A model generated the notes under the pieces. That model was not told the DNA's origin, ran no database searches, and worked only from the letters and a program-made list of their open reading frames with translations. DNA of 64,000 nt from Chitinophagaceae bacterium (GTDB lineage: Bacteria > Bacteroidota > Bacteroidia > Chitinophagales > Chitinophagaceae): the NCBI GenBank assembly GCA_947458275.1, contig CANGYR010000001.1:62001-126000 (forward strand), read 5' to 3'. The position numbers and the translations under genes are program-made. Below are positions 26,029-51,569 of the stretch, piece after piece; position 1 is the stretch's first letter, and each line of letters starts with the position of its first letter.

Positions 26029-26071
26029 CAAAAATACCTTGATTGATATTTTACTGAAATGATAAGTGTCA
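26029..26071 (-). promoter_or_regulatory. Promoter and FNR/CRP-type box of the hibernation-factor gene
   Basis: On the minus strand the -7 element TATTTTTG occupies 26036-26029, predicting a start near 26024, 14 bases before the ATG. The box TGAC-ACTT-ATCA (26071-26060, minus strand) is centred at 26065.5, i.e. about -41.5. A further inverted repeat GTGTCA-N10-TGACAC overlaps it (26066-26087). Confidence 0.6.
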
Positions 26072-26136
26072 CAGGCATTTTTGACACCACTCATTAAAGC
26101 TTGATTGAATTGAAATTAATTATGTGAGTAAAAAAT

Positions 26137-29448: not shown

Positions 29449-29460
29449 TGATTTTAATCA
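29449..29460 (-). promoter_or_regulatory. FNR/CRP-type box in the gap 29227-29479
   Basis: TGAT-TTTA-ATCA is an exact match to TGAT-N4-ATCA. It is upstream of the minus-strand gene starting at 29226. No good -7 element was found at the matching distance, so the promoter it serves is unclear. Confidence 0.4.
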
Positions 29461-29479
29461 ACGATTCATTTGAAAGAAC

Positions 29480-29866
29480 TCATACAAGTATTTTTCCCCG
29501 AAGCTGGTATGCAATTAAAACAATCATAAGTCCGATTAAAATCATTGTAATATCCGTCCACAGCATGCCATTAAAAATCGACATCTGCGTTATCATCCAA
29601 ATACACAATATCATACCTGCAAAGATTGCATAATTATACCTTTTGGGATGTCTGATAAGATTATAATACACTGCCAGAAAATGCGTGCCGCCAATAAATA
29701 AAGTCAATAACAAACCGGGTATGAAATAATCGTGAAACGGCGTGCCTTTAAGAAGACTCAGTGGAAGATCTAAAATAACCCCGTCAGGCACACTCATTAA
29801 TAATATACCCGTCAGCGTTGAAGTAAGTGCTATAAATGAAATAAGCAGAAACAGAAATGACTTCAT
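29480..29866 (-). CDS. Small four-helix membrane protein
   Basis: 128 residues with four hydrophobic segments (SFLFLLISFIALTSTLTGIL, FIPGLLLTLFIGGTHFLAVYY, YAIFAGMILCIWMITQMSIF, DITMILIGLMIVLIAYQL). No known catalytic motif is seen. Similar anonymous membrane proteins are common in Bacteroidota. It follows the PEBP gene by 22 bases and is probably cotranscribed with it. Confidence 0.7.
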   Translation of the reverse strand: MKSFLFLLISFIALTSTLTGILLMSVPDGVILDLPLSLLKGTPFHDYFIPGLLLTLFIGGTHFLAVYYNLIRHPKRYNYAIFAGMILCIWMITQMSIFNGMLWTDITMILIGLMIVLIAYQLRGKILV

Positions 29867-30636: not shown

Positions 30637-30681
30637 ATGATAATTATCATTTAATACAAAGGTTAGTTGAATATAGATTTG
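30637..30681 (+). promoter_or_regulatory. FNR/CRP-type box and promoter of the DUF892 gene
   Basis: The perfect palindrome ATGATAATTATCAT (30637-30650) contains TGAT-N4-ATCA and is centred at 30643.5. A perfect -7 element TAGATTTG (30674-30681) predicts a start near 30686, giving a box position of about -42. The box lies between divergent genes and could also serve the minus-strand unit. Confidence 0.65.
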
Positions 30682-31226: not shown

Positions 31227-31236
31227 ATAAAATAAA

Positions 31237-31887: not shown

Positions 31888-31903
31888 AGGTATATTGTAA
31901 ACT

Positions 31904-32542: not shown

Positions 32543-32547
32543 ATACT

Positions 32548-32613
32548 TTGATGAATATCAAGTATGGCTGTAACGTTTATCATTTCAGTTTATAATTTTC
32601 TTTGCTTGATTTG
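32548..32613 (+). promoter_or_regulatory. FNR/CRP-type box upstream of the BON-domain gene
   Basis: TTGAT-GAAT-ATCAA (32548-32561) is a perfect full-length FNR-type palindrome. A near-consensus -7 element TTGATTTG (32606-32613) would place the box near -63, close to class I geometry. A second candidate -7 (TTTCTTTG, 32597-32604) gives about -54. Confidence 0.5.
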
Positions 32614-32658
32614 TAAAAATAATTTTCAAAATCACCTTAAACATTAAATCGTACAATT

Positions 32659-33333: not shown

Positions 33334-33364
33334 TAATTGTAATACCCAAAGCAACATATGTAGA

Positions 33365-33390
33365 AGCCGTCTCAATAATAAGAGACGGCT
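33365..33390 (+). terminator. Bidirectional terminator between BON gene and 33393 gene
   Basis: AGCCGTCTC (33365-33373) pairs perfectly with GAGACGGCT (33382-33390) around an 8-base loop, with T/A-rich flanks. It sits between two convergent genes. Confidence 0.7.
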
Positions 33391-33392
33391 TA

Positions 33393-33782: not shown

Positions 33783-33895
33783 CTAAAAAAGATTGAAAAG
33801 TGAAAAATTAAAAAGGAATAACTTTTTAATAATTATGAATTGGTGAAACTATTGACATTTATCTAAATAAATACTGATGCTTTATTCAATAATAA

Positions 33896-33973
33896 ATGAT
33901 AAAAATCATCAGAAAGAAATAATGTTTATTGTTATGTTTTAATAAGATTAATAAGTCAACTGATTCTAATCAG
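33896..33973. promoter_or_regulatory. Two FNR/CRP-type boxes in the 33783-34046 divergent region
   Basis: ATGAT-AAAA-ATCAT (33896-33909) and CTGAT-TCTA-ATCAG (33960-33973) are both exact TGAT-N4-ATCA palindromes. One may serve the minus-strand gene at 33782 and the other hsp20 at 34047. No perfect -7 element was found. The remaining 264-base gap is A/T-rich with nothing else recognised. Confidence 0.5.
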
Positions 33974-34046
33974 ACCTGAGTTAGTTTTTAGTCATAATAA
34001 TAAGATAGTCAGCAGGGTTATATTGCATTGATAAAAGCAATTAGTT

Positions 34047-34493
34047 ATGCAAAGGTCAATATTCTATAGACCCGATTCTTTGGTATATCCAGGTGAATTT
34101 GTTCCTTGTGCAGATGAGGAAAGTATTCAATACAAAGATATTCACAACAATAAAACACTGGCGCCTAAACCACCGGTTGTAATAACAGAATTACCGGAAT
34201 CGTTTAAAGTTGAATTTGTCATACCCGGAGTAACCAGAGATCAATTACTAATTGAGGTACACAGTAATGTAATATCTGTAATCATTCTGAGTAAAATAAA
34301 AGATAAAATTAAACCGGAGAAACATAAGACTACAGAAAAGAAAACAGAGAATCAGGACAGAACCGTTTCAATACCAAGAAATGCCAATCCTGAATTCATT
34401 TGTGCTGAATACAAAGACGGAGTTCTTAGCATTTATCTTCCAAAGTCAAAAAATCCACCCAAAAATTTACACCGTCGTATCATAGCATATTGA
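34047..34493 (+). CDS. Hsp20/alpha-crystallin small heat-shock protein
   Basis: 148 residues. The alpha-crystallin domain covers about residues 45-145: ITELPESFKVEFVIPGVTRDQLLIEV opens it and the conserved AEYKDGVLSIYLPK closes it. An unusually long lysine-rich insertion (KIKPEKHKTTEKKTENQD) sits in the middle. It holds unfolding proteins in a refoldable state. It is followed after 9 bases by the glycogen-phosphorylase-like gene and probably heads a three-gene operon with that gene and the phospholipase D gene. Confidence 0.87.
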   Translation: MQRSIFYRPDSLVYPGEFVPCADEESIQYKDIHNNKTLAPKPPVVITELPESFKVEFVIPGVTRDQLLIEVHSNVISVIILSKIKDKIKPEKHKTTEKKTENQDRTVSIPRNANPEFICAEYKDGVLSIYLPKSKNPPKNLHRRIIAY

Positions 34494-34502
34494 TTAAAAA
34501 AG

Positions 34503-36152
34503 ATGAACTTCAGTTTTAGCCATAGCTATGAAATCAATCCCCTATATAATAAGAAAGTAGCCTATTTCTGTATGGAATATGGCATTCATCAACCATTGAA
34601 AACATACGCAGGAGGATTAGGATTTCTTTCGGGATCACACATGAGAAGCGCCTTTGAGTTGCGTCAAAATATAGTAGGGATAGGAATATTATGGAAGTAT
34701 GGCTATTATAGTCAGGTCAGAAAGGAAGATCAAACAATGGATGTATTGTTTGAAGAAAATAAATATGGCTTTCTACAGGATACTGGTATTAAATTCACCA
34801 TTAAAGTTGCTAAACACGATGTTTGGGTAACTGCATATTTTCTGCAGTCAAATGTATTTGACACAGCCCCCGTCTTTTTTTTATCAACTGATTTGCCGGA
34901 AAATGATTATTTGGCTAAAACAATTTCTCATAAATTATATGATTCGAATCCAGACACAAAAGTCGCGGCATCTATTTTACTGGGAGAAGGAGGAGCAAAA
35001 TTACTGGAGCTTATTAACTGGATACCCGACATCTACCATCTCAATGAATCACATGGACTTCCTCTTGTTTTTTTTCTATACAGCAAGTATAAAAATATAG
35101 ATGAAGTAAAAAAGAGATTTGTGTTCACCAATCATACACCTGAAGAATCCGGGAATCAGAGATCAAGTTTGACCTTGCTTGAGAAAATGAGCTTTTTTTG
35201 CGATGTCCCACTTACTGAAATCAAAGCAATCACCGGCAACGAAAACAATGAATTGAATTACACTCAAACAGCGCTAAGGTTATGCAAAGTAGCAAATGGA
35301 GTTTCAAAATTGCATCAAAAAACCATGAACAAAATATGGAACAGCGAGCAGGAGAAATATAATATCACTTCAATTACAAATGCCCAAAATTTAAAATACT
35401 GGAGTAATGAAGAATTATATGAAGCAATAAATAAAAATGACAAAGAAAAATATATTCAAATAAAGAAGAAGAAGAAACTTGAGCTGTTTGATATTGTTGC
35501 CGATCAGTGTGGAGAGATTTATGATCCCAATATTTGTACCATTGTATTTGCAAAAAGATTCGCGTCTTACAAACGGCCGGATATATTCTTTCATGATATG
35601 GATAAATTTCATAAGCTTGTTACCAATAAAGAAAAGCCCGTTCAGATTATTTGGGCGGGAAAACCCTATCCGATGGACTATGACGGAATAGGATTATTTG
35701 ACAAAATCGTTGACGTTTGTAAAAAATATTATAATTGCTCGATACTGGTAGGATATGAATTGAATCTATCCAAAATACTAAAAAGAGGAGCCGATATTTG
35801 GCTCAATGTACCTCGATACACTCACGAAGCATCCGGAACCAGCGGTATGTCAGCAGCTATGAATGGTTGCGTGAATGTAGCAATCCCGGATGGCTGGTTT
35901 CCTGAATTTGCAAAAGATAAAATCAATTCATTTGTCATTCCATTGCCAAACAAATCAAATCCTGAACACATTCAAGATGATATTGATTCAAACAATGTGT
36001 ATGATTTACTGGAAAAAGAAGTACTCCCAATGTATTATGACTATCCCTCACGGTGGTTTGAAATTGTAAAAAATAGTATGAGAGACATCAATCCATTTTT
36101 TGACAGCAACAGAATGGCCAAAGAATATTATGAAATGTTATACAATGTCTAA
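34503..36152 (+). CDS. Alpha-glucan phosphorylase-like protein lacking the PLP lysine
   Basis: 549 residues of the short alpha-glucan phosphorylase type (VAYFCMEYGIHQPLKTYAGGLGFLSG, HLNESHGLPLVF, FAKRFASYKRPDI, IIWAGKPYP). The family releases glucose-1-phosphate from glycogen using pyridoxal phosphate. The cofactor lysine normally lies in a GTSGMK or GTGNMK motif. Here it is GTSGMSAAMNG, with Ser450 in the lysine position, confirmed in the DNA (TCA). The protein is otherwise intact. It is probably either a non-catalytic glucan-binding relative or uses another chemistry such as nucleotide-sugar transfer. Confidence 0.8.
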   Translation: MNFSFSHSYEINPLYNKKVAYFCMEYGIHQPLKTYAGGLGFLSGSHMRSAFELRQNIVGIGILWKYGYYSQVRKEDQTMDVLFEENKYGFLQDTGIKFTIKVAKHDVWVTAYFLQSNVFDTAPVFFLSTDLPENDYLAKTISHKLYDSNPDTKVAASILLGEGGAKLLELINWIPDIYHLNESHGLPLVFFLYSKYKNIDEVKKRFVFTNHTPEESGNQRSSLTLLEKMSFFCDVPLTEIKAITGNENNELNYTQTALRLCKVANGVSKLHQKTMNKIWNSEQEKYNITSITNAQNLKYWSNEELYEAINKNDKEKYIQIKKKKKLELFDIVADQCGEIYDPNICTIVFAKRFASYKRPDIFFHDMDKFHKLVTNKEKPVQIIWAGKPYPMDYDGIGLFDKIVDVCKKYYNCSILVGYELNLSKILKRGADIWLNVPRYTHEASGTSGMSAAMNGCVNVAIPDGWFPEFAKDKINSFVIPLPNKSNPEHIQDDIDSNNVYDLLEKEVLPMYYDYPSRWFEIVKNSMRDINPFFDSNRMAKEYYEMLYNV

Positions 36153-36157
36153 AATGG

Positions 36158-37321
36158 ATGCAAATAAAAGAATACAATAACAATAACAAGGTTACTCTCA
36201 TAAAAAGCGGGAAAATTTATTTTGACCGAATCATTGAACTAATTAAAAATGCGCATAAGAAAATTCATATCCAGACATATATTTTTCTTGAAGATGAAAC
36301 AGGTAAAAAAGTTGCAGAGGAACTGATTGCTGCAGCAAAAAGAAAAGTTGAAATTTATTTATTAGTTGATGGATACGCATCCAAATCTATTTCCACCTCT
36401 CTTATAAACAAACTAATTTCTGCTGGTATTCATTTCCGTTTCTTCCGTCCCTTCTTAAAAAGTAATTTTCGATATTTTACAAGAAGACTTCATCATAAGA
36501 TTATTGTGATAGACAATAATATAGGCATTGTTGGAGGATTAAATATCGCCGATAGATATAATGACGTGCAGAATATTAAGGCCTGGCTGGATTTTGCAGT
36601 AATCATTGAGGGAGAGACAGTTGAAGAATTAGACCAATTATGTGAGAATATGTGGCAAAATGATTCATTCGAAACCAATCATCACATTAAAAACGACCAT
36701 CCGTTCACATATCATTTTAAAAAAGAAGAAAAAAGTGATATAAGAATAAGACTAAACGACTGGCTAAAGCATAAAAGTCAAATATCAGCTGCTTATATTG
36801 AAATGTTCAGGAAAGCAAAAAAAGAAATAACGATACTGTGCAGCTATTTTCTTCCGGGAAGGGTTATGAGAAGGCAGATGATGCGTGCTGTTAAAAGAGG
36901 AGTTGTCGTCAAAGTGGTTGTTGCAGGACCGTCTGATGTTTGGATTGCTAAAAATGCTGAGAGATGGCTGTATGACTGGCTGCTGCGAAATAAAATTCAA
37001 ATATTTGAGTATCAAAATAATATACTGCATGGAAAAATCGCCGTATATGATGACACTGCTGCAACCATTGGCTCATATAATATCAATAATCTCAGCACTT
37101 ATTCGAGTATAGAATTGAATGTGGATATTAAAAATACATTCTTCGCAAAACAGGTCAAGGAAACCATCAATGAAATAATAGAAAATCATTGTAAGAATAT
37201 TACAGAAAAAGAACACAAAAAATCAAATAATATCATAAAGCAATTTTCCAGATGGCTTTCATATCAATTGATTTATGGAGTTTACTCAATACTTACAATA
37301 GCATTTAAGAGAAAACATTAA
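36158..37321 (+). CDS. Phospholipase D family protein, cardiolipin-synthase-like
   Basis: 387 residues with two HKD motifs: LHHKIIVIDNNIGIVGGLN and LHGKIAVYDDTAATIGSYN. There are no N-terminal membrane helices, unlike ClsA, so it resembles ClsB-type soluble enzymes. A hydrophobic C-terminal segment is present. It probably makes cardiolipin or exchanges phospholipid head groups, remodelling the membrane during stress. It is 5 bases after the phosphorylase-like gene and ends 4 bases into the convergent membrane gene. Confidence 0.87.
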   Translation: MQIKEYNNNNKVTLIKSGKIYFDRIIELIKNAHKKIHIQTYIFLEDETGKKVAEELIAAAKRKVEIYLLVDGYASKSISTSLINKLISAGIHFRFFRPFLKSNFRYFTRRLHHKIIVIDNNIGIVGGLNIADRYNDVQNIKAWLDFAVIIEGETVEELDQLCENMWQNDSFETNHHIKNDHPFTYHFKKEEKSDIRIRLNDWLKHKSQISAAYIEMFRKAKKEITILCSYFLPGRVMRRQMMRAVKRGVVVKVVVAGPSDVWIAKNAERWLYDWLLRNKIQIFEYQNNILHGKIAVYDDTAATIGSYNINNLSTYSSIELNVDIKNTFFAKQVKETINEIIENHCKNITEKEHKKSNNIIKQFSRWLSYQLIYGVYSILTIAFKRKH

Positions 37322-38328
37322 TTTCCTGCAATGCGTGAGAACATTGAATTAAAAAACATCCAGTTCCAACCGGAAAATCTTCCTCTCTGGACTACCAATC
37401 TGTTATCTTTGGGATGTTCTAAAAAATAATGAAAAACGAATTTATTTGATGGTGATTTCCACCCAAGAATTTGACCAAATCGCAAATCATTGAAAACGAT
37501 AGTATCACTCCAGTTCTCAATGGTATAATAGTTTTTAGAAAATCTTATTAACTTTTGCAACTCTTCATGATTTGAAACGCTATTCAACAACGAATCGTTT
37601 TTTTTGAAATAATGAAGATGGAGATTATTTTTTTTATCAAAAACAGAAGTATACCCTACATCAAAACCTGAATCTTTTTCTGCAACAACATACCATAATA
37701 AATTCTGTAGAGGAGCAGGAGTAAAAAAATAGCTTTTATATACCTTATGAGTAGCAGTTAGCTCCTGATGAATTCGTTTATCGAGCCAGATTTTATTAAC
37801 AGAACACAAGCCCAGATAAGCCATCGGGATAAACAAACCAAACTTCCACCAGAATCTTCTTCTGATATCAAATTTCTTCAGCTTAATCAATTGGAACAAC
37901 GCAATAGCTGGCCAAACTGAAAAAAGAGGATCGGCTACATAGACTGTATTTAAAGATATTCTCTCATGACTGAATGGCTCAAACCACCCTATTCCGTAAT
38001 TATTAAAAGCATCAATGAATAAATGAAAAAAAACTTCAAACGAAAAAAAATAAATCCATTTGCGAAAAGAAATATTATGCGGCTGATGAATTTTATCTGC
38101 CAGCAAAGCAAAAAAAGGGACAATCAATACAGCAAACATAATAGAATGGGTAAAGCCTCTATGTGCCAGTAATGATTCAGGAACATTTAACCATAAATGT
38201 GAGATAAAATCAATATCGGGTATGCTTTGAGCCAGTATTCCCCACATCATTGCCTTCTTACCAAACCCTTTTTCAAAAAATGCTTCTCCTATACATGCAC
38301 CAATAGCAATATGGGTAATGGAATCCAA
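37318..38328 (-). CDS. DUF457/YdjM-type membrane-bound metal-dependent hydrolase
   Basis: 336 residues starting with TTG at 38328 (MDSITHIAIGACIGEAF). The HxxxG near the start, PDIDFISHL, AHRGFTHS and HLFIDAFNNYG are the conserved His/Asp metal ligands of this family. About four to five membrane helices are present. Substrates are unknown. It lies 11 bases after the upstream Usp gene and is probably in the same operon (usp-usp-hydrolase). Confidence 0.85.
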   Translation of the reverse strand: MDSITHIAIGACIGEAFFEKGFGKKAMMWGILAQSIPDIDFISHLWLNVPESLLAHRGFTHSIMFAVLIVPFFALLADKIHQPHNISFRKWIYFFSFEVFFHLFIDAFNNYGIGWFEPFSHERISLNTVYVADPLFSVWPAIALFQLIKLKKFDIRRRFWWKFGLFIPMAYLGLCSVNKIWLDKRIHQELTATHKVYKSYFFTPAPLQNLLWYVVAEKDSGFDVGYTSVFDKKNNLHLHYFKKNDSLLNSVSNHEELQKLIRFSKNYYTIENWSDTIVFNDLRFGQILGWKSPSNKFVFHYFLEHPKDNRLVVQRGRFSGWNWMFFNSMFSRIAGN

Positions 38329-38339
38329 ATTTTTTGAAA

Positions 38340-39176
38340 TTAATGATGTGATATAAATATCGGAAGTTGTGTTTCTTTTAAAAGAAAATCTGCCAGACTA
38401 GATCTAAACCATCTTGAAACAGCAGATCTTCCATAGGCTCCCAAAACAATTAGGGTATTGGCAGATTGTCCTTTTATACATTCCCGTATTTCAGTTTCCG
38501 GTAACCCTTTTAATACTGTGTATTCAGTTTTCTTGAAATGAATCCGCATAAATTCCTTTAATAGTATATTGTCGGGTAGATGTAGATTGTCTTCAATGCC
38601 TTTAACCGTAATCAATTCCACCTCAGCATTTTCAAATACGGTGAACATGCAACTAAACATTTTCAATGCATACACAGATGCAGGAGAGCCGTCATAGAAA
38701 AAAACCAATTTATTAATTGGCTGGAATGCGGACTGAACCAAAAAGACCGGGCAGTTTGTATCGGCAAGGAGATTTTTAATAAATCTTGAAGGAACCTTTT
38801 CATCATAATGAGTCAGCGTTTCTTTACTGTCAATGATTAAAAGGTCGGCAAAAATAGTTTCATGAATAAGTTCGCTTAATGCGACGTCACGGTCATGATG
38901 AGTATTAAAATTTATGCCGGACTTTTGGCATTTACTTTCAAAGTCAATTGAAGACTGAGTACGCTTTAAATTATCTGTATCCTTGTACTTTCTCAGTCTT
39001 TTCTCTGAAACGCCATCTTTTACAATTAGATCATAAATCTTGTAGCTTGTATAGGTAACATCATCAAGAAAAACTCCTGTTAAGTGTGCGCCCGACATAC
39101 GGGAAAGCTCAACAGCATAATCTCTGGTATTAGTTGAATAATTCAATCCGTCAAAAGCAGCTATAATTTTTTTCAT
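38340..39176 (-). CDS. Universal stress protein, tandem-domain
   Basis: 278 residues with two Usp folds. The first begins KKIIAAFDGLNYSTNTRDYAVELSRM; the second begins KLVFFYDGSPASVYALKMF and ends with the nucleotide-binding-like motif GAYGRSAVSRWFRSSLADFLL. Usp proteins bind ATP or act in dormancy and stress. This is the second gene of an operon headed by the similar Usp at 39218-40042. The gene begins ATGAAAAAAATT, which is complementary to the exposed part of the predicted small RNAs. Confidence 0.9.
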   Translation of the reverse strand: MKKIIAAFDGLNYSTNTRDYAVELSRMSGAHLTGVFLDDVTYTSYKIYDLIVKDGVSEKRLRKYKDTDNLKRTQSSIDFESKCQKSGINFNTHHDRDVALSELIHETIFADLLIIDSKETLTHYDEKVPSRFIKNLLADTNCPVFLVQSAFQPINKLVFFYDGSPASVYALKMFSCMFTVFENAEVELITVKGIEDNLHLPDNILLKEFMRIHFKKTEYTVLKGLPETEIRECIKGQSANTLIVLGAYGRSAVSRWFRSSLADFLLKETQLPIFISHH

Positions 39177-39217
39177 TCGAGAATTTTATCCCTGAAGAAA
39201 TATGCTTAATAATTTTA

Positions 39218-40042
39218 TCAATTGTGCGTGATAAAAACTGGGAAACGATGCTCTCTAATCACATCATTAATAAAACTCTTTTTGAATATTTGTGAAAATG
39301 TAGATCGTCCGTATGCACCGCAAATCAATACGGCAGACTTTTTATTATTTAGCCACTTTACAAATCTTTCTTTAGGATCTATGTTTAATTTAGTGACTGT
39401 TAGATCACTGAAATGCCTGGAGGCAAGTTCCTCGATATATGCTTCATTTGGAATACTTGTCCCCTCATCCTCTTTTGCATAAATCAGTAATGTTTTATTT
39501 TCAACGAATTCGGGGAGCAGATAAACGAATTGTTTGATGGCATATACAGACGATTCGCTGCCATCATAAGTAAGTATGTTGAGTGTTGGAAAATCAAATT
39601 TTTCGGGCACAATCATAACAGCGCACTCTACATCGTGCAAAGTATCTTTAATGTAACTGTTGGGGTCTCCCGTCCCTGCATTTTGATAAAATATTTCACT
39701 GCCAATTATCAGCAAATCGGCAAACCTTGATTCCTTTTTAAGTTCTGATAAGGCCAGGTCTGCAAAATCTTTTCGGACACTGTATTCAATAGAATGTTTT
39801 TGACAAAGCGATTTGAATTTCTCGATGTTTTCATTTATCTCTTCAGTAACCTCTTCCTCCTGAACAGGAAGAAATATGGGACCGCCAATTCCATCGGCAT
39901 AGCTCCATATATTGGCATAGCTCACCTGAGGCAGAAATGCTCCGGTAAGTAAAATAGGATTGATTTCGTTAAGCCGGCGGGCAAATTCAAAAGCCCCTTC
40001 CGAGAAATGATTTCCGTCGAAAGCAAGTAATATTTTTCTCAT
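39218..40042 (-). CDS. Universal stress protein, tandem-domain
   Basis: 274 residues from the ATG at 40042; a frame-extending start at 40072 would add 10 residues and overlap the promoter, so it is rejected. Two Usp domains: the first starts RKILLAFDGNHFSEGAFEFARRL, the second NILTYDGSESSVYAIKQF and ends CGAYGRSTFSQIFKKSFINDVI. It is paralogous to the gene 41 bases downstream. It is divergent from the D-lactate-dehydrogenase-like gene, with a box between them. Confidence 0.9.
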   Translation of the reverse strand: MRKILLAFDGNHFSEGAFEFARRLNEINPILLTGAFLPQVSYANIWSYADGIGGPIFLPVQEEEVTEEINENIEKFKSLCQKHSIEYSVRKDFADLALSELKKESRFADLLIIGSEIFYQNAGTGDPNSYIKDTLHDVECAVMIVPEKFDFPTLNILTYDGSESSVYAIKQFVYLLPEFVENKTLLIYAKEDEGTSIPNEAYIEELASRHFSDLTVTKLNIDPKERFVKWLNNKKSAVLICGAYGRSTFSQIFKKSFINDVIREHRFPVFITHN

Positions 40043-40059
40043 GATATAAATGATTTCTA

Positions 40060-40125
40060 CAAACATATTCATGAAAAATATAAATGCTAATGACAGCAGT
40101 CAAACGCTGTTTTGACAAACATCAT
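40060..40125 (-). promoter_or_regulatory. Promoter of the usp operon with FNR/CRP-type box
   Basis: The minus-strand -7 element TATGTTTG (40067-40060) is perfect and predicts a start near 40054. The box TTGAC-AAAC-ATCAT (40112-40125) has one changed base in a half-site and lies at about -64, close to class I spacing. It could also act on the plus-strand gene at 40171. Confidence 0.5.
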
Positions 40126-40170
40126 AAATGAGTGCAGATGGATTACTGAGATTCGAGAAATTATATAAAA

Positions 40171-41193
40171 ATGAAAATTCTTTTTTACAGTTGCAAAAAA
40201 TTTGAAGAGTCATACCTGGAAAAAGCCAATATTAATAGGCATGAGATAAAGTTTATAAGAGAACCATTAAATAAAACAACAGCTGTTTTATCTAAAGGAT
40301 ATGATGTTATTTCCGTTTTTACACAAGATGATGTAACTGCAGATGTATTGAAAATACTTCAGCAAAACGAAGTATATAAAATTACTACAAGGGCTGTCGG
40401 CATTGATAATATTGACATTAAAAAAGCCATCGAACTAAATATAAAGGTTGCCAATGTACCGGAGTATTCTCCTGAGGCTGTCGCAGAGCATACTATTGCA
40501 ATGATGTTAACACTGAGCAGGAATATTGTTCGTGCGGAAAAACAGATAAAGGAATATGATTATTCAATTGACAGGCTTATTGGATTTAACCTTCAGGGCA
40601 AAACGGTTGGAATCATTGGCGTTGGTAAAATCGGCCGCTCCGTAGCAAAAATCTTAAAAGCATTTGGGTGCCAACTTCTTGGATACGATATCAAAAAGAA
40701 CAAAAAAGAAATAAACGATATTCCTGTAGCGTTTACCTCTCTTGAAAATCTTTGCCGAAATGCGGATATAATAACCATTCATACACCATTGAGCGAGGAG
40801 ACAAAATACATGATTGATGACAAATTACTCAGCATGATGAAATACAACGTAATGATTATCAATACTGCAAGGGGCGCAATCATAAATACCAAAGATATCA
40901 TTAAGCACCTGAAAAGCAAACACATCGGTTCATTTGGAATGGATGTGTATGAAAAAGAGAAAGGAATCTTTTTTATCAATCATTTGGGAAAGAAAATCGA
41001 GGATGAAGATCTGGAAACTTTGATGGAAATGCCCAATGTATTAATCACTCCGCACATCGCCTTCGCTACCGTAGAAGCAATTGAAAAAATTGCTGAAACT
41101 ACCTTCCACAATATCAGTTGCTGGGCAAAAAATACAATATCTGAGAATGAGGTTACATTGTCGGCTCATTCTGAAAAAACGCTTATCTACTGA
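40171..41193 (+). CDS. D-2-hydroxyacid dehydrogenase, D-lactate dehydrogenase-like
   Basis: 340 residues. The catalytic and cofactor features are TRAVGIDNIDI, the Rossmann motif VGIIGVGKIGRSVA with Asp (YDI) for NAD preference, NTARGAIINTKDII (catalytic Arg), DVYEKEKG (Glu) and TPHIAFATVEA (His). It resembles fermentative D-lactate dehydrogenases, which reduce pyruvate with NADH when oxygen is short. It heads an operon with mlaE, mlaF, mlaD and a flavin oxidase (gaps of 14, 19, 14 and 2 bases). Confidence 0.88.
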   Translation: MKILFYSCKKFEESYLEKANINRHEIKFIREPLNKTTAVLSKGYDVISVFTQDDVTADVLKILQQNEVYKITTRAVGIDNIDIKKAIELNIKVANVPEYSPEAVAEHTIAMMLTLSRNIVRAEKQIKEYDYSIDRLIGFNLQGKTVGIIGVGKIGRSVAKILKAFGCQLLGYDIKKNKKEINDIPVAFTSLENLCRNADIITIHTPLSEETKYMIDDKLLSMMKYNVMIINTARGAIINTKDIIKHLKSKHIGSFGMDVYEKEKGIFFINHLGKKIEDEDLETLMEMPNVLITPHIAFATVEAIEKIAETTFHNISCWAKNTISENEVTLSAHSEKTLIY

Positions 41194-41207
41194 TACAACT
41201 GAAAAAT

Positions 41208-41978
41208 ATGGCTGATAATATACCGGTTAAATCTTTTCTGAATGAGGTAGGTAATATATCTCAATTTACAGGCAGATTTTTTTCCCAATGGTACAGACCC
41301 AGATATGAAATCAGTGAATTTATCCGACAGTGTTATTTTATAGGATATAAGTCTTTGCCGCTAATCGGTCTCACAGGATTTATTATGGGATTGGTATTAA
41401 CTATGCAATTGAGACCTACCATGGTTGATTATGGGGTGGAATCTCAAATACCCGCAATCGTAGGCATTGCCATCATCAGAGAAATTGGCCCTGTATTAAC
41501 AGCACTGATATTCGCAGGAAAAATCGGTTCCAGTATTGGCGCCGAACTGGGATCTATGAAAGTAACGGAACAAATAGATGCCATGGAAGTCAGTGGCACC
41601 AACCCTTTTAAATACCTGGTAGTATCAAGAGTTTTAGCTGCTACGTTAATGCTTCCCATACTTACCATACTCAGTGATGCGGTTTCTCTCTATGGTTCAT
41701 ATTTAGGTGTAAATATCCGCGGTCAAACCAGCTCAAGTTTATTTTGGATTCAGGTAATAGAATCGATTGATTTTTACGATGTACTCCCTGCATTTATAAA
41801 GACCTATTTTTTTGGATTTGCCGTAGGAATCATTGGCTGCTATAAAGGCTACAACAGCAGTAAAGGAACAGAAGGTGTTGGAAGAAGTGCCAATTCGGCG
41901 GTGGTGGTTTCATCTATTATCATTTTTATTCTTGATTTACTGGCAGTACAGATAACTGATTTGCTTGGTTATAATTAA
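41208..41978 (+). CDS. mlaE: ABC transporter permease, MlaE family
   Basis: 256 residues with five to six membrane helices and the family core GFIMGLVLTMQLRP, IIREIGPVLTALIFAGKIGSSIGAELGSMKVTEQIDAMEVSG. It is the membrane subunit of the Mla-type phospholipid transporter that moves lipids between inner and outer membranes. Adjacent mlaF and mlaD complete the core complex. MlaB and MlaC are not present here. Confidence 0.92.
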   Translation: MADNIPVKSFLNEVGNISQFTGRFFSQWYRPRYEISEFIRQCYFIGYKSLPLIGLTGFIMGLVLTMQLRPTMVDYGVESQIPAIVGIAIIREIGPVLTALIFAGKIGSSIGAELGSMKVTEQIDAMEVSGTNPFKYLVVSRVLAATLMLPILTILSDAVSLYGSYLGVNIRGQTSSSLFWIQVIESIDFYDVLPAFIKTYFFGFAVGIIGCYKGYNSSKGTEGVGRSANSAVVVSSIIIFILDLLAVQITDLLGYN

Positions 41979-41997
41979 ACTATATCGTCTGAAATAA

Positions 41998-42774
41998 ATG
42001 ATTACGCTGGAACAAAAAAGAACGAAGAAAACGCAACTATCAACTGTCATAGATGTGTTGAGCATTAAAAATTTGTACAAATCGTTTGGAGAAAATAAAG
42101 TTTTGGTTGATTTCAATTTCACTTTGCATAAAGGCGAAAATGTGGTGGTACTTGGAAAATCAGGTTCGGGTAAATCAGTTTTGATAAAGTGCATTATCGG
42201 CTTGTTAAATCCTGATGAAGGTGAGATAACTGTTTTAAACGAGCATGTACTTGAACTGAATACTACTGAAATGGATAAAATCCGGGCTAAAATCGGATTT
42301 CTTTTTCAAAGCAATGCTCTGTATGACTCAATGACCGTAAGAGAAAATCTTGAGTTTCCGCTCAGAAGACATTGGATAAAAGTTACTCAGGAAGAAGTAA
42401 ATGAACTTGTTAAGCAGGCGTTAGATGATGTAGGCCTGGGCTACACTGTAGATATGATGCCTATTGAACTTTCAGGCGGAATGAGAAAAAGAGTTGCTTT
42501 GGCCAGAACGATGATTTTAAAACCTGAAATCATTCTTTACGATGAGCCGACTACCGGCTTGGATCCAATTACAGGAAAAGAAATAATCAATCTGATGATT
42601 AAAATAAAGAAGAAATACAATACTTCATCGCTGATCATTTCACATGATATGAATTGTGTAAAGATGGCCGCAGATCGAATAGTCATTTTACTTGAGGGCA
42701 AATGTTATGCCGAAGGAAATTACGAGACATTAAAAAATAATAAAGATCCAAAAGTGATGCAGTTTTTTGAATAA
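41998..42774 (+). CDS. mlaF: ABC transporter ATP-binding protein, MlaF family
   Basis: 258 residues. Walker A GKSGSGKS, Q loop (LFQSNALYDSMTVREN), signature LSGGMRKRVALAR and Walker B ILYDEPTTGLDP are intact. It powers the MlaE/MlaD lipid transporter. Its first ~20 residues (EQKRTKKTQLSTVIDV) precede the usual domain start, so a slightly later start is possible. Confidence 0.92.
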   Translation: MITLEQKRTKKTQLSTVIDVLSIKNLYKSFGENKVLVDFNFTLHKGENVVVLGKSGSGKSVLIKCIIGLLNPDEGEITVLNEHVLELNTTEMDKIRAKIGFLFQSNALYDSMTVRENLEFPLRRHWIKVTQEEVNELVKQALDDVGLGYTVDMMPIELSGGMRKRVALARTMILKPEIILYDEPTTGLDPITGKEIINLMIKIKKKYNTSSLIISHDMNCVKMAADRIVILLEGKCYAEGNYETLKNNKDPKVMQFFE

Positions 42775-42788
42775 CACAAGAATCAATT

Positions 42789-43778
42789 ATGCAAAGTAAA
42801 AAAGCTGTCAATAATATTAAACTCGGAATATTTGTATTAGCCGGTTTATTTTTTCTCATCATTATTCTGTACATGATTGGGAAGAATGAACATTTTTTTG
42901 GCTCCAATTTTATGATAAAAGCAAGATTTCAAAATGTGCAGGGGTTAAAAATTGGCAATAATGTGAGATTTGGCGGAATAAATATTGGAACAGTAAAAGA
43001 AATAAATATTATCAATGATACATTGATGGAAGTTGAAATGGTTGTAGACAATGAACTAAAAAATATACTCAGAAAAAATGCCGTTGTAACAATTGGAACC
43101 GATGGATTGGTAGGCAACAAGGTCATAAACATTGAATCAGAAGGAAATAAATCGGCATTGGCCATGGAGGGCGATATACTTCCTTCAAAAAAACCGGTTA
43201 ATACAGACGAGATGTTGAGGACTCTCTATAAAACGAATAATGATGTAGGCATGATAGCTGAAAATCTGAAGTCTACCGTGGAGAAAATAAACAAAAGCGA
43301 GGGATTATGGAATCTTATGAATAATAAAGACCTTTCCATGCATATTACTCATTCAGTTGAAAACATTGAAAAAGCCAGCAGGGAAGCAAACTTAGTTGTT
43401 AATGAGATCAATAAAGTAGTTAAAAAAATAAATTCCGGACATGGGCTAGCCGGAACCATTATTAATGATACTTTATTGGCAGTAACCCTCTATGAGGCAG
43501 TTTCTAATTTCAGAACAATGAGTAAGCGTTCAGATTCTTTGGTTGTTCATCTGCAAAAGTCAATAACTGAAATAGATAAAGAAATCACTGAAGGAAAAGG
43601 AACAGTCCACTCGCTGCTTATGGACTCAACCAGCGCGAGGGCAATTGAGAAAAGCTTAATAAATATAGAAAAAGGAACAGAAGGATTTCAGCAGAACATG
43701 GAAGCACTAAAACACAATATTTTGTTTAAGGGATATTTCAGAAGACTGGAAAAAGAAAAAAAGAAAAAAGAAAAATAA
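42789..43778 (+). CDS. mlaD: MlaD/MCE-domain lipid-transport protein
   Basis: 329 residues. One N-terminal membrane helix (IKLGIFVLAGLFFLIIILYMIG) anchors the protein, followed by a single MCE domain (about 38-115: KARFQNVQGLKIGNNVRFGGINIGTVKEI). The remaining ~200 residues are helical and end in a lysine-rich tail. MCE proteins form hexameric rings that shield lipid. The last gene before the flavin oxidase, 2 bases away. Confidence 0.9.
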   Translation: MQSKKAVNNIKLGIFVLAGLFFLIIILYMIGKNEHFFGSNFMIKARFQNVQGLKIGNNVRFGGINIGTVKEINIINDTLMEVEMVVDNELKNILRKNAVVTIGTDGLVGNKVINIESEGNKSALAMEGDILPSKKPVNTDEMLRTLYKTNNDVGMIAENLKSTVEKINKSEGLWNLMNNKDLSMHITHSVENIEKASREANLVVNEINKVVKKINSGHGLAGTIINDTLLAVTLYEAVSNFRTMSKRSDSLVVHLQKSITEIDKEITEGKGTVHSLLMDSTSARAIEKSLINIEKGTEGFQQNMEALKHNILFKGYFRRLEKEKKKKEK

Positions 43779-43780
43779 TA

Positions 43781-44203
43781 ATGCGTAATCTGAACAGAGA
43801 AGAATGCCTGCAATTCCTTATGGAAAACACCTTTGGCTACGTGGGATGCAATGACGGCTATAATACTTACATCTACCCCGCAACTTACTATTTTGATGAT
43901 AAAAATATTGTTTGCCAGTCGGCTCCGGATTCTAAAATTGACATAATGCGTCAAAATAGAAGAGTTTGCTTTCAGATAGGTTCAAACCATACACAGTTCA
44001 ATCACAAAAATGTATTGATTCTAGGAGAATATTCGGAAATCAATGATCTGAATCAAAGATATAATTCAATAAGGTATTTTGTGCACAGAATGATACAACT
44101 GGATAGTTTTCAGGATCAGGATACAATAATGAAACAACACAAGATGATTAAGCCGGTAATTTACAGAATCATTATTGATGAAATAACAGGTACGCATCAC
44201 TGA
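43781..44203 (+). CDS. Pyridoxamine 5'-phosphate oxidase-like flavin protein
   Basis: 140 residues with the split-barrel flavin-binding fold. Features: LNREECLQFLMENTFGYVGCNDG, the strand IYPATYYFDDKNIVCQSAPDSKIDIMRQNRRVCFQIG and the conserved VLILGEYSEI. Members bind FMN, F420 or heme and reduce diverse substrates. Such proteins occur in dormancy regulons. Its specific substrate is unknown. It is the last gene of the D-Ldh/Mla operon. Confidence 0.8.
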   Translation: MRNLNREECLQFLMENTFGYVGCNDGYNTYIYPATYYFDDKNIVCQSAPDSKIDIMRQNRRVCFQIGSNHTQFNHKNVLILGEYSEINDLNQRYNSIRYFVHRMIQLDSFQDQDTIMKQHKMIKPVIYRIIIDEITGTHH

Positions 44204-44219
44204 TATATCATACAATGAA

Positions 44220-44263
44220 ATAATTCTGGTCATTTTAACAGGAGCCATTGAATTATACTTTTA
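44220..44263 (+). promoter_or_regulatory. Copy 1 promoter module: degenerate FNR-type box plus -7 element
   Basis: Box TAAT-TCTG-GTCA (44221-44232) has one mismatch per half-site. The -7 element TACTTTTA (44256-44263) has one mismatch. The box is 41.5 bases from the predicted start near 44268, as in copies 2 and 3. Confidence 0.55.
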
Positions 44264-44267
44264 CCAA

Positions 44268-44329
44268 GGTTTTTCATAGGATATTTGGATATAAGACAGG
44301 GTTGGATTTCTATCCGACCCTCTTTTTTT
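44268..44329 (+). ncRNA. Predicted small RNA, copy 1
   Basis: Predicted transcript of about 62 nt from the copy 1 promoter to the T run at 44323-44329. The terminator stem pairs GGGTTGGAT (44299-44307) with ATCCGACCC (44312-44320) around a TTCT loop, including one G:T pair. The upstream half is single-stranded, with TTTTTCAT and two GGATA-type segments. Confidence 0.6.
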
Positions 44330-44353
44330 AATATCAATAAATCATATTCTGAT

Positions 44354-44397
44354 ATGATTCAAATCATTTTAAACAAAACAATCTGATTATACTTTTG
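44354..44397 (+). promoter_or_regulatory. Copy 2 promoter module: perfect FNR-type box plus perfect -7 element
   Basis: ATGAT-TCAA-ATCAT (44354-44367) is an exact palindrome. TACTTTTG (44390-44397) is a perfect TAnnTTTG. The box centre (44360.5) is 41.5 bases upstream of the predicted start at about 44402. Confidence 0.7.
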
Positions 44398-44401
44398 CAA
44401 A

Positions 44402-44463
44402 GGTTTTTCATAGGATATTGGATATAAAGACGGGGTTGGATTTCTATCCGACCCTCTTTTTTT
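44402..44463 (+). ncRNA. Predicted small RNA, copy 2
   Basis: About 62 nt, ending in a 9-bp terminator stem (44433-44441 with 44446-44454) and seven T residues. TTTTTCAT is at 44404-44411 and GGATA at 44413-44417 and 44420-44424. This copy has the best-conserved promoter of the three. Confidence 0.7.
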
Positions 44464-44488
44464 GATTATTCTTGAATCATATATCTGT

Positions 44489-44532
44489 CTGAATCTTATC
44501 ATTTAAAACTAAGCTATCTGATTATACTTTTA
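44489..44532 (+). promoter_or_regulatory. Copy 3 promoter module
   Basis: Box TGAA-TCTT-ATCA (44490-44501, one mismatch) and -7 element TACTTTTA (44525-44532, one mismatch). The box is again centred 41.5 bases before the predicted start near 44537. Confidence 0.6.
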
Positions 44533-44536
44533 CAAA

Positions 44537-44598
44537 GGTTTTTCATAGGATATTGGATATAAAGACGGGGTTGGATTTCTATCCGACCCCATTTTTTT
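44537..44598 (+). ncRNA. Predicted small RNA, copy 3 (also potential pfkB leader)
   Basis: About 62 nt. The terminator stem starts with GGGG (44567-44570) pairing with CCCC (44587-44590), so it is one pair longer than in the other copies, and T residues run from 44592 to 44598. The pfkB ATG is only 14 bases downstream, so readthrough would express pfkB and the hairpin could act as an attenuator. Confidence 0.65.
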
Positions 44599-44611
44599 GT
44601 ACCTTAGTCAT

Positions 44612-45532
44612 ATGTCTAAAATACTCACCATTACCCTTAATCCTGCAATTGATAAAAGTTCAAGCATTGAATCTTTGGTGCATGAAAAGAAGTTGAAATG
44701 TTCCTCACCTAAATTTGAACCGGGTGGTGGCGGAATCAATGTATCCAGGGCTATTAAAAAATTGGGAGGCGAATCGAAAGCCCTCTATCTGGCAGGAGGA
44801 TATACCGGAAAGTTTTTTTCGGATATGCTGAACAAGGAAGGCATCGATGCTACACTTGTGGAAATAAAAAATCATACCAGAGAGAATCTCATCATATATG
44901 ACCGATCAAGCGGCTTACAATACCGCTTCGGAATGCCCGGCCCATTTGTATATGAGGCAGAATGGCAAAAGCTGCTTTCCGAAATTGAATCGGTAAGCAA
45001 TGTTGAATATATAGTAGCCAGTGGCAGTATTTCCGAAGGAATACCTGAAGATATTTTTGCCCGCATTGCACATATTGCCAAAAGAAAAAAAATTAAATGT
45101 ATCGCAGATACTTCCGGAAATGCCCTGGCAATGGCAGTAAAGGAAAGCCTGTTTCTTATAAAACCCAATATTGGGGAATTGAGTTCCCTGGCCGAACAGG
45201 AAATCACTGTTGAAAATATTGCTTCCGTCGCCGATAATTTATCTATCAAAAACAACTGCGAAAATATTGTTGTTTCTATGGGGCCTGAAGGTGCATATCT
45301 AATTGGAAAAAATGAAAAGAAAAAATTTACTCCTCCTTCTGTTGAAAGAAAAAGTACCGTTGGTGCAGGCGACAGTATGGTTGCCGGAATTGTATTGAGT
45401 CTTTCTTTAGGGAAAAGCATTGCCGATGCAGTAAAATACGGCGTAGCATGCGGAACTGCTGCAACGATGAACCCGGGTACAGAATTATGCCATCTCGAAG
45501 ATGTAGAATCTCTCTACACTAAAATCAGCTGA
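44612..45532 (+). CDS. PfkB-family hexose/phosphofructokinase
   Basis: 306 residues from the ATG at 44612; an in-frame TTG at 44597 lies in the terminator T run and is rejected. Signatures: ITLNPAIDKS, EPGGGGINVSRAIKKLGG and the ATP/catalytic motif VGAGDSMVAGIVLSL with the catalytic Asp. It is closest to 6-phosphofructokinase-2/1-phosphofructokinase types, which would feed glycolysis under low oxygen. PfkB is a DosR-regulon member in mycobacteria. It sits directly after the tandem RNA array and lacks an obvious promoter of its own. Confidence 0.88.
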   Translation: MSKILTITLNPAIDKSSSIESLVHEKKLKCSSPKFEPGGGGINVSRAIKKLGGESKALYLAGGYTGKFFSDMLNKEGIDATLVEIKNHTRENLIIYDRSSGLQYRFGMPGPFVYEAEWQKLLSEIESVSNVEYIVASGSISEGIPEDIFARIAHIAKRKKIKCIADTSGNALAMAVKESLFLIKPNIGELSSLAEQEITVENIASVADNLSIKNNCENIVVSMGPEGAYLIGKNEKKKFTPPSVERKSTVGAGDSMVAGIVLSLSLGKSIADAVKYGVACGTAATMNPGTELCHLEDVESLYTKIS

Positions 45533-45544
45533 TTACTTCTTTTC

Positions 45545-45609
45545 TGATTTGCATCACTTGCTAAAAATGATTTAGTCATTTTTATAAAATCCGTGTACCT
45601 ATATCTTAG
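45545..45609 (+). promoter_or_regulatory. FNR/CRP-type box and promoter of the YtxH operon
   Basis: TGAT-TTGC-ATCA (45545-45556) is an exact box. A near-consensus -7 element TATCTTAG (45602-45609) puts it at about -63. A second inverted repeat AAATGA-N5-TCATTT (45565-45581) lies near -41, but its arms are one base too close for the standard spacing. Confidence 0.5.
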
Positions 45610-45638
45610 TGTAAATTAAAATCATTAAAAATATTTAC

Positions 45639-45887
45639 ATGGAAAAGAACACCAAAAACACATTAATTGCTTTGGGAACCGGCATTGCCGTAGGCAGTTT
45701 GCTGGGCATATTATTTGCTCCCAATAAAGGAAGTGATACCAGAAAAAAAATCACAGACGCAAAAGAAAAACTCAGCGACAGATGGAAAGAGCAGGTAGAA
45801 AAAAGCAGAGAAAATTTACTTTCCTTAAAGGAAGGACTGAAAGAAAGATTAGATGCCGTTACTGAAAAAGTGGATGAATATCTTTAG
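45639..45887 (+). CDS. YtxH-domain small membrane protein
   Basis: 82 residues. A glycine-rich membrane helix (LIALGTGIAVGSLLGILFAP) is followed by NKGSDTRKKITDAKEKL and an amphipathic charged tail, the YtxH/gas-vesicle-like pattern. With the next two genes it resembles the enterobacterial yqjD-yqjE-yqjK order, where YqjD tethers ribosomes to the membrane in stationary phase. It is the first gene of a plus-strand operon running to 47900. Confidence 0.82.
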   Translation: MEKNTKNTLIALGTGIAVGSLLGILFAPNKGSDTRKKITDAKEKLSDRWKEQVEKSRENLLSLKEGLKERLDAVTEKVDEYL

Positions 45888-45907
45888 TAAGCTACAATAA
45901 AGATTCT

Positions 45908-46270
45908 ATGTTAAATGCCTTCGAAAAAATTGAAGAAATATCTGTACATATCAAAAAGTATGTGGATAATCGCATAGAATACACAAAGCTGAATATTGCA
46001 GAAAAATCATCAATAGTTTTAAGCATTTTATTATCTGGACTATTATTAATTATTCTGTTTCTTTTGTTCATTATTTTTTCAGGAATATCACTTGCATTCT
46101 ACCTGAGTGAAGTGACTGGTAAGATTTACTGGGGCTTTTTGATAGTCGGCGCAATGTATCTGGCCATTGGATTGATTGTGTGGCTATTCAAAAAGCCCTT
46201 ACTTCAACTTCCGATTATGAACAGCATTTTGAATCAAATTTTCAATAAGCAGGACCATGAGGCGCATTAA
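45908..46270 (+). CDS. Holin superfamily III/DUF1469 membrane protein (YqjE-like)
   Basis: 120 residues. An amphipathic N-terminal helix (IKKYVDNRIEYTKLNIAEKSS) precedes two membrane helices (IVLSILLSGLLLIILFLLFIIFSG and IYWGFLIVGAMYLAIGLIVWLF). The layout matches the phage-holin-III-like family, which is not phage-derived here. It overlaps the next gene by 14 bases. Confidence 0.8.
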   Translation: MLNAFEKIEEISVHIKKYVDNRIEYTKLNIAEKSSIVLSILLSGLLLIILFLLFIIFSGISLAFYLSEVTGKIYWGFLIVGAMYLAIGLIVWLFKKPLLQLPIMNSILNQIFNKQDHEAH

Positions 46271-49851: not shown

Positions 49852-51569
49852 GTTTGTCTATCAACAGAATAAAGTATGCCAACATGTATGGTCCTACGGT
49901 TGGCGATAAGGTGAGACTGGGTGATACAGAATTATTCATTGAAATTGAAAAAGACTATACCGTTTATGGCGAGGAAGCAAAATTTGGAGGAGGCAAAACC
50001 ATTCGTGATGGAATGGCGCAATCGGCAAGAGCCACAAGAGATGAAGGCGTTCTCGACTTTGTCATCACCAGTGTAATGATTATCGACCATTGGGGAATTG
50101 TGAAAGGAGATATAGGCATCAAAGACGGAAGAATTGTAGGCATCGGAAAGGCAGGCAATCCCGATACAATGGATGGCATAACGCCCAATATGATTATTGG
50201 CGCATCAACAGAAGTGCATGGCGGCGCAGGGCTGATAGCTACTGCTGGCGGCGTGGACACACACATACATTTTATTTGTCCCCAACAAATTGACCATGCA
50301 TTGTATAGCGGTATCACCACCATGATTGGCGGAGGAACCGGTCCGGCAGATGGCACCAATGCCACTACAGTAACACCAGGCGCCTGGAATTTGCAGAAAA
50401 TGCTGGAGGCCGCCGATGCGTTTCCGATGAATCTCGGCTTTTATGGCAAAGGTAACTGCGCTGCCTTAGTTCCACTGGAAGAGCAAATCGAAGCCGGTGC
50501 ATTGGGATTAAAAATTCATGAAGACTGGGGAAGTACTCCTGCCGTAATAGATGCTTCATTGAAAATTGCAGACAAACATGATGTGCAAATAGCTATTCAT
50601 ACCGATACACTCAACGAAGCCGGGTTTCTTGAAAATACCATCAAAGCCATCGACGGCAGAGTGATTCATACTTTCCATACCGAAGGTGCCGGCGGAGGAC
50701 ATGCGCCCGATATCATCAAAGCGGCCATGTATAATAATGTATTGCCATCTTCCACCAATCCAACAAGACCTTATACCGTCAATACCATAGATGAACATCT
50801 GGATATGCTGATGGTTTGTCATCATCTGGACAAAAACGTTCCGGAAGATGTATCATTTGCCGACTCAAGAATAAGACCTGAAACCATTGCAGCTGAAGAT
50901 ATTTTACATGATATGGGCGTGTTTAGCATGATGAGCAGCGACTCACAGGCAATGGGCCGCGTGGGAGAAGTAATTACAAGAACCTGGCAGACCGCTCACA
51001 AGATGAAAGTTCAAAGAGGAGCATTGCCGGAAGATAAAGACAATGACAACGATAATTTCAGAGCTAAAAGGTATGTGGCTAAATATACCATCAATCCTGC
51101 AATCTCTCATGGAATGAGCGAACATATAGGTTCACTGGAAAGCGGAAAGCTGGCAGACATAGTTCTGTGGAAACCGGCAATGTTTGGCGCAAAACCAGAA
51201 ATGATCATAAAAGGAGGAATGATAATCGGTGCAAAAATGGGAGACCCTAACGCTTCCATACCAACACCTCAACCAGTTATATACAGACATATGTTTGGCG
51301 CTTACGGCAAAGCATTGCACGGCACATCCATCAGTTTTGTATCAAAAATATCTTTGGAGAAAAACATTGTACAACAATATAATTTGCAGAAACAAATTAT
51401 CCCGGTAAAAAACTGCAGAAATATTTCAAAGAAAAATATGATTCATAATGATAAGACTCCGCTGATTGAAGTAAATCCTGAAAATTATGAAGTCAAAGTA
51501 GATGGAGCGCACATTACATGCGAACCTTTATCCGTAGTCCCATTAGCTCAACGATATTTTTTATTCTAA
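49848..51569 (+). CDS. ureC: Urease subunit alpha (catalytic)
   Basis: 573 residues. The nickel ligands are visible: HIHFICPQQ (two His), the carbamylated Lys in GLKIHEDWG, and later His residues around TDTLNEAGF and [12 protein letters not shown]. The flap Cys/His are in [13 protein letters not shown]. It hydrolyses urea to ammonia and carbamate. The sequence looks fully active. Confidence 0.98.

Follow-up and report, generated by a model that had tools for sequence, protein, structure and literature searches.

What are the three tandem repeat units that precede a pfkB-type gene in a Chitinophagaceae genome, what might switch them on, and what might their product do? The units lie in a window of 64,000 nucleotides, the whole stretch of DNA that was analyzed (GenBank assembly GCA_947458275.1, contig CANGYR010000001.1, positions 62,001 to 126,000). 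They are flanked by a pyridoxamine 5'-phosphate oxidase-like gene upstream (43781..44203, plus strand) and a pfkB-type hexose kinase gene downstream (44612..45532, plus strand). The reading that we prefer, and hold to be fairly probable, is that the units are genes in tandem, each encoding a ~61-nt, Hfq-independent small RNA (sRNA) that acts in trans, that they are wired to the stress-island regulon of a receiver-CRP regulator, and that the 5' seed of the RNA would lower the translation of messages. The sequence shows directly the repeat units and the RNA family they belong to, the hairpin, the geometry of the promoter and the common box; from them we infer transcription.

Three Tandem Small RNA Genes

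A preliminary description of this DNA had reported three tandem units of ~134 bp, and they are found where it placed them, as direct repeats of 135 nt with starts 134 and 135 bp apart. Its further claim, that in each unit a small RNA gene stands behind a Bacteroidota-type -7 element and a CRP/FNR-type box in the class II activator position, is borne out as well. The predicted RNA starts (44268, 44402, and 44537) coincide with the GG of GGTTTTTCATAGG in each unit. The predicted RNAs of copy 1 (44268..44328), copy 2 (44402..44462), and copy 3 (44537..44597), all on the plus strand, are delimited by folding and by matches of 77.0, 82.3, and 83.7 bits to a covariance model of the family (R2, described below). 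Copy 1 has one extra T in its 5' part (ATTTGG). The box is centered at -41.5 from the predicted start in all three copies. It is perfect in copy 2 (TGATTCAAATCA, 44355..44366) and degenerate in copy 1 (TAATTCTGGTCA, 44221..44232, with 5/6 half-site letters) and copy 3 (TGAATCTTATCA, 44490..44501), as had been stated. The -7 elements are of the TAnnTTTG type, TACTTTTA in copies 1 (44256..44263) and 3 (44525..44532) and TACTTTTG in copy 2 (44390..44397), all on the plus strand and all ending 4 nt before the GG.

Intrinsic terminators had also been predicted, and a terminator scan finds 10-bp stems with TTCT loops in all three units (44298..44321, 44432..44455, and 44567..44590, plus strand). The three terminator-like sites in 43000-46000 all fall inside the units, and their bare count is within chance (2.0 in shuffles, sd 1.6). 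The signal above chance is recurrence: five copies in the genome, R2 scores of 77-84 bits, and an excess of strict boxes in the window. Between the end of the copy 3 T-run and the pfkB ATG there are 13 nt (window 44592-44614), so that pfkB may need read-through or a nearly leaderless promoter.

Searched with Rfam at the gathering threshold, the window yields a single match, 5_ureB_sRNA, away from the sRNA units. It lies at 50000-50298 (minus strand), antisense to a urease alpha gene, and may be merely conserved coding sequence. At E<=10, eight Rfam matches were obtained in five loci. One of them, to SorY, overlaps an sRNA copy; at 20.8 bits against a gathering score of 111 it was taken as chance.

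A Multicopy Family in Chitinophagaceae

The genome holds two further copies, one beside recQ (L004) and one beside queA (L005), giving five in total. The 5' part and the stem apex are common to all five, apart from the extra T of copy 1. The nearly invariant 5' part reads GGUUUUUCAUAGGAUAUUGGAU. Conservation of positions 1-20 among 154 copies, like R2 itself, is biased by the exact-match search through which copies were collected, and two fairer measures are available. Positions 21-23 are conserved in 152, 153, and 151 of the 154 copies. If up to one mismatch is allowed, the 20-mer GGTTTTTCATAGGATATTGG has 104 occurrences (101 exact, three with one mismatch), spread over 23 of the 24 genomes of the genus at 2-10 copies in each of the 23; the only genome without it is 71% complete. 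At the same tolerance it is absent from all 15 genomes that represent other families in the order, and the reversed 20-mer has no match in any of the 39 genomes.

An exact scan of named genomes with the 20-mer returned at least 119 stretches. Among the matches listed are Chitinophagaceae, Ferruginibacter, Niastella, Flavihumibacter, Terrimonas, Puia, Flavisolibacter, and others, or plain Bacteroidota. A covariance search of the kind that the preliminary description had proposed was carried out at family, order, and class level with R2, built from 111 matches in 100 loci. R2 matches 112 of 147 Chitinophagaceae genomes and 75 of 100 genera, some genomes through weaker second-tier matches only. 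Order-wide it matches 28 of 149 genomes, 16 of those 28 in Chitinophagaceae, and class-wide 16 of 247, six of those 16 in Chitinophagaceae. The earlier statement that no relative was known in Bacteroidota thus gives way to an RNA family that is widespread across Chitinophagaceae.

Beyond Chitinophagaceae the weak matches are mostly hairpins without the seed. In the ten class-level genomes of other families that were inspected there is one match each (two in G456), and nine of the ten keep the hairpin and not the seed; one locus, L238, additionally has TTTTTCATAG. Four of the 12 order-level genomes outside the family were inspected, and among them L175, at 46 bits and with GGTTTTTCATATGATAT, may be a genuine relative outside Chitinophagaceae. 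Within the second tier, 12 of 20 loci carry a sister family that keeps the layout and has a changed 5' part, AGTTTTCATAGGGTACGGATTAAAAACG or a near variant of it, at 38.6-48.1 bits (L167, L169-L174, L176, L180, and L184-L186, two of them from one genome, G042). One sister sRNA belongs to the genome under study (L167, C11:47936-47993, minus strand). The same genome has a diverged sibling of 34 bits (L168 1574-1635, C14:35073-35134, plus strand), which by appearance stands behind an ECF-like promoter.

In the literature searched, which excluded most subscription journals and all bioRxiv preprints, no description of this RNA family was found, nor, judging by titles, a small RNA study in Chitinophagaceae, and the seed letters do not occur. 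By their sequence, the window units are members of a multicopy sRNA family for which no previous report was found.

Structure of the RNA

All five copies of the genome form the terminator stem on folding, and most of the 5' part is open in their centroid folds. In the minimum-energy folds of two of the five, copy 3 and L004, part of the 5' region is paired with the spacer. Across 99 distinct sequences, two-sided changes are seen at 10 of 10 stem pairs, in 82 cells against 18.0 in shuffles, and 90.4% of cells are paired against 37.8-64.9% for slid structures, in an alignment that was fitted to the model and so leans toward the structure. Two of the ten pairs are weak, being unpaired in 40 and 41 of the 99 sequences. 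A simple hairpin finder passes 127 of 154 copies; the 27 failures mostly show one mismatch or bulge by eye, and a few appear broken. A coding function was considered and set aside, a conserved peptide being unlikely because the spacer between seed and stem differs by 1-2 nt among copies.

Genomic Places and Promoter Kinds

Where the copies lie was surveyed in a sample of 204 listed placements, in which some loci are counted twice and gene names come by homology from one representative each. In this sample, 51 copies lie by gldN, gldM, or uvrC, 26 by queA or its neighbors, 24 by recQ (plus six probable), 13 by recA or its neighbors, and 11 by pdhB; 73 lie elsewhere, including the three of the window. 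A mobile repeat is not favored as an explanation, because in many loci the copies stand beside identical genes.

The -7 element is shared widely. Among 154 copies, 110 have a TAnnTTTG-like element (at least 5/6) upstream, compared with 23 when the upstream sequence is shuffled; in 103 of the 154 the best element has its end exactly 4 nt before the GG. What lies further upstream is of several kinds. TACC-N6-8-GGTA boxes, centered at -42 to -44.5, precede 23 of 154 copies, against 0.22 in shuffles (for example L051 3202, L058 7611, and L115 3773); we take them to resemble NarL sites. Many copies at queA loci have TGCAAC...CGTCTTA and CAATAA...CGTT upstream, which are presumably ECF promoter-like.

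Of the 24 genomes of the genus, at least five have tandem trios, and these stand under promoters of at least three kinds. CRP-type boxes precede the trios of the window, of G019 (L208), and of G016 (L290). The trio of G023 (L206) has TAC...GTA palindromes, with the strict TACC-GGTA form in one of three copies, and that of G017 (L207) has ECF-like promoters. The G019 trio (L208 870-4408) adjoins the mlaE/mlaD operon as the window trio does, in the opposite orientation. In the G016 trio (L290 2942-3342, minus strand; 85.0, 57.6, and 35.7 bits), two of the three seeds have diverged, and the boxes and hairpins are kept.

There is a broader view, to which we give an even chance: one nearly invariant seed would be the shared output of several signals, forming a family-wide post-transcriptional hub, and tandem siblings would give rise to new seeds. 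The same ~61-nt RNA would then be kept near gldN/uvrC (the type IX secretion operon), recQ, queA, recA, pdhB, and stress islands, and be read from receiver-CRP dual boxes, TACC-GGTA boxes, and ECF-like promoters.

The Stress-Gene Island and Its Box

The window has 11 strict TGATN4ATCA boxes where 3.37 would be expected, and none of 100 shuffles attains 11. Under a simple reading-frame mask, which leaves 8% of the window as intergenic, seven of these boxes fall between genes. Offsets from the box center to the end of a -7 element peak in the window at 37-38 (eight sites) and 59 (seven sites), with no other offset above four. Two of the eight sites at 37-38 belong to sRNA copies 2 and 3, and one (63020) lies within a coding frame.

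Many of the boxes fall in a stress-gene island (window 26060-45556) that repeats the box near -41.5 and -63.5, several boxes being paired 22 bp apart; at this spacing both would lie on the same face of the helix. Its gene families are Usp, Hsp20, BON, DUF892, phosphorylase, PLD, PfkB, and YtxH, and the box is not present at every gene. Dual boxes 22 bp apart are found in the divergent promoter of baeRF-like and DNA polymerase beta-like genes (26060..26093) and upstream of a universal stress protein gene (40091..40124, minus strand). Further dual boxes lie at a mostly intergenic site (29449..29482) and, with one mismatch, upstream of a BON-domain gene (32549..32582). Single boxes precede a DUF892 gene (30638..30649, with a perfect -7 element at offset 38), an Hsp20 gene (33897..33908), and a YtxH-like gene that starts at 45639 (45545..45556). 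Genome-wide there are five exact sites of the dual box, and 27 sites at up to one mismatch against five for the reversed pattern. Three of the exact sites are in the island, one is beside the receiver-CRP and hsp20 genes, and one is within a reading frame on another contig (L246).

How far do the sRNA genes share this arrangement? TCAT stands at -38 and -60, 22 bp apart, in all three window copies, and their dual-box scores are 9/12 in two and 8/12 in one because the -63.5 site is a right half-site only. In the whole set, TGAN6TCA is centered at -41.5 in four of 192 copies (window copies 2 and 3 and two in Niastella caeni) and at -63.5 in four of 192 (the G019 trio and L052), with at most one at any other position. 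Dual scores of at least 11/12 occur in register in four of 193 copies, again the G019 trio and L052, so that a single tandem trio supplies three of the four, and at none of 55 shifts. Scores of at least 10 are found for six copies in register against two, both at shift -22, and scores of at least 9 for eight against seven over all other shifts. Each copy of the G016 trio scores 10/12. The boxes are absent from L004 and L005 of the same genome and from the G018 copy beside pfkB. Judged from these sequences, the CRP-type box is real: the island repeats it, and the trios of G019 and G016 carry both boxes.

A Candidate Regulator

The preliminary description named FNR as activator. In a profile search, HTH_Crp_2 matched three times in the genome. 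Two of the matches are to complete proteins, both lacking a cysteine cluster; in the third, a short contig ends within the gene and leaves a C-terminal fragment. One of the matches is a receiver-cNMP-HTH_Crp response regulator, whose gene directly follows that of a PAS histidine kinase near an Hsp20 gene, and dual boxes stand at genes neighboring it. Related genomes repeat the association. In G018 a cluster runs Usp-(SDR, by eye)-Pyridox_ox_2-PfkB-YtxH-two small genes-receiver-CRP-...-Hsp20, with the pyridox-PfkB-YtxH order of the window; its receiver-CRP gene is preceded by a box at offset 37, and a diverged sRNA (54.5 bits, minus strand, without boxes) lies at the end of pfkB. In G016 the sRNA trio adjoins the PAS-kinase/receiver-CRP pair. 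Matches to the regulator at E<=1e-20 occur in 36 of 39 relatives, many of them to one domain only. Some genomes that have the regulator show no box at the sRNA copies inspected, for example G011, where a script covered five of the six copies.

Because of the gene clusters and boxes in G018, G016, and the genome itself, the PAS-kinase/receiver-CRP pair is the best candidate for the regulator. Activation of the same sRNA genes by a true oxygen-sensing FNR seems distinctly improbable to us. The TGATN4ATCA box and its class II position would fit FNR, and islands with Usp, Hsp20, and PfkB families resemble low-oxygen regulons. Against this stand the lack of a cysteine cluster in both complete proteins, with only a fragment as the third match, and the relatives in which the receiver-CRP gene goes with the island's gene cluster and boxes. 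The FNR label is thus probably wrong, and the "oxygen-type" regulator of the earlier description is unproven. Under the receiver-CRP reading, the PAS kinase would phosphorylate the response regulator, which would then bind the boxes at -41.5 plus full or half boxes at -63.5 and switch on the island and the three sRNA genes jointly.

How the RNA May Act

Once made, the RNA would most likely pair with messages through its 5' part, the seed, perhaps close to their start codons, and so lower their translation, possibly together with an RRM protein. Profiles of the Hfq family found no member in the genome and detected one in five of 14 control genomes; two RRM_1 proteins are present. The analogy with FopS, whose pairing partners are the start regions of susC-like messages, makes translational repression the likeliest action.

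In general, start regions that are rich in A show complementarity to the seed. Over 880 start regions, two of 150 shuffled seeds bind equally well on average (z -2.1), with z -3.6 (0/150) at 173 ATGAAA starts, z -1.5 (11/150) at the 707 others, and z -3.98 at gldN (36); in all these figures the shuffles preserve base composition only and the loci behind the start regions are enriched in neighbors of the RNA. The complementarity looks generic for ATGAAA-type starts, so no targets are named. Two candidate start-codon motifs were tried and found unconvincing. The perfect complement of RNA positions 1-10, ATGAAAAACC, has 25 sites in the genome against 14 for its control. Five are the sRNA copies, and none of the other 20 clearly starts a gene, the one at L281 opening a 72-aa frame only. 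CCTATGAAAA has 17 sites against 12 for its control; six are sRNA genes of both families, and two of the other 11 coincide with gene starts, those of what by eye are a TPR-like protein and a PorP/SprF-like protein.

Could the main partner of the RNA instead be a protein, such as an RRM protein, or a single other RNA, with the 5' part as the binding site? A 5' part that hardly varies (101 of 104 occurrences exact), the want of convincing targets from start-codon complementarity, and the two RRM_1 proteins would all agree with this. The fit of the 5' part to start regions argues the other way, as do the sister family and the tandem siblings with altered 5' parts, which is what seeds should show, and we regard protein binding as rather unlikely. 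Far less probable still is a reading without independent sRNA genes, in which the units would serve pfkB as leaders or attenuators, or would act as bidirectional terminators. The short distance from the copy 3 T-run to pfkB would suit a leader; many copies precede a convergent gene, where the A-tract before the stem could yield a T-run on the opposite strand. However, most copies have a -7 element at a fixed distance before the RNA, the conserved 5' 20 nt are unnecessary for a terminator, and the flanking genes vary between loci. We keep to a trans-acting sRNA with a 5' seed, and we infer its base pairing, like the identity of the regulator and its signal, from sequence.

Relation to Known Small RNAs

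Enterobacterial FnrS is an Hfq-dependent sRNA under an activator of the CRP/FNR family, the [4Fe-4S] protein FNR. The resemblance to FnrS that had been noted stands in logic only, as an sRNA under a CRP/FNR-family activator. It does not extend to an Rfam match, although the FnrS model is presumably included among the 4227 Rfam models, and the present RNA further differs in that no Hfq gene was found, the genes are tandem and multicopy, and the activator is probably not FNR.

The closest known system is FopS, a family of paralogous sRNAs of Bacteroides thetaiotaomicron. In the available part of its report, FopS has 14 copies with a conserved single-stranded 5' seed followed by an intrinsic terminator; its pairing with start regions of susC-like messages is proven, as is binding by RbpB, which counters it (PMC11697453). 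The same part describes canonical sigma-ABfr promoters with no strong sign of sub-diversification (PMC11697453). So far as that account reaches, the present family is alike in being multicopy (2-10 per genus genome), in its conserved 5' seed, mostly open in centroid folds, and intrinsic terminator, and in having Bacteroidota promoters and no classical chaperone. It is unlike FopS in that its copies stand under at least three promoter kinds and that pairing and RRM-protein binding are predicted from sequence alone. Neither FopS nor GibS is among the eight Rfam matches at E<=10 in the five loci; the presence of FopS in Rfam is unconfirmed.

The sibling sRNA families LhrC, Qrr, and OmrA/B consist, in the same part of that report, of several similar sRNAs with overlapping targets (PMC11697453). 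Compared with what is given there for these families of other phyla, the RNA described here differs in that its 5' part is kept across a bacterial family in unrelated promoter contexts. Rfp18 of Flavobacterium psychrophilum, a conserved Bacteroidota sRNA, has its predicted pairing region in the third stem-loop; the part of its report available describes no multicopy arrangement, unlike the family here (PMC9723704).

Implications

The 5' end hardly varies across the family, in which several copies have different promoters, and strong selection is therefore to be expected. Going by sequence features, the RNA is probably a regulator, and the three sRNA genes of the window seem to be switched on together with the neighboring block of stress genes. 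Through this family, the surroundings of the type IX secretion operon are linked to a stress-gene island and to a receiver-CRP regulator, and the RNA opens a way into the study of post-transcriptional control in bacteria that lack Hfq.
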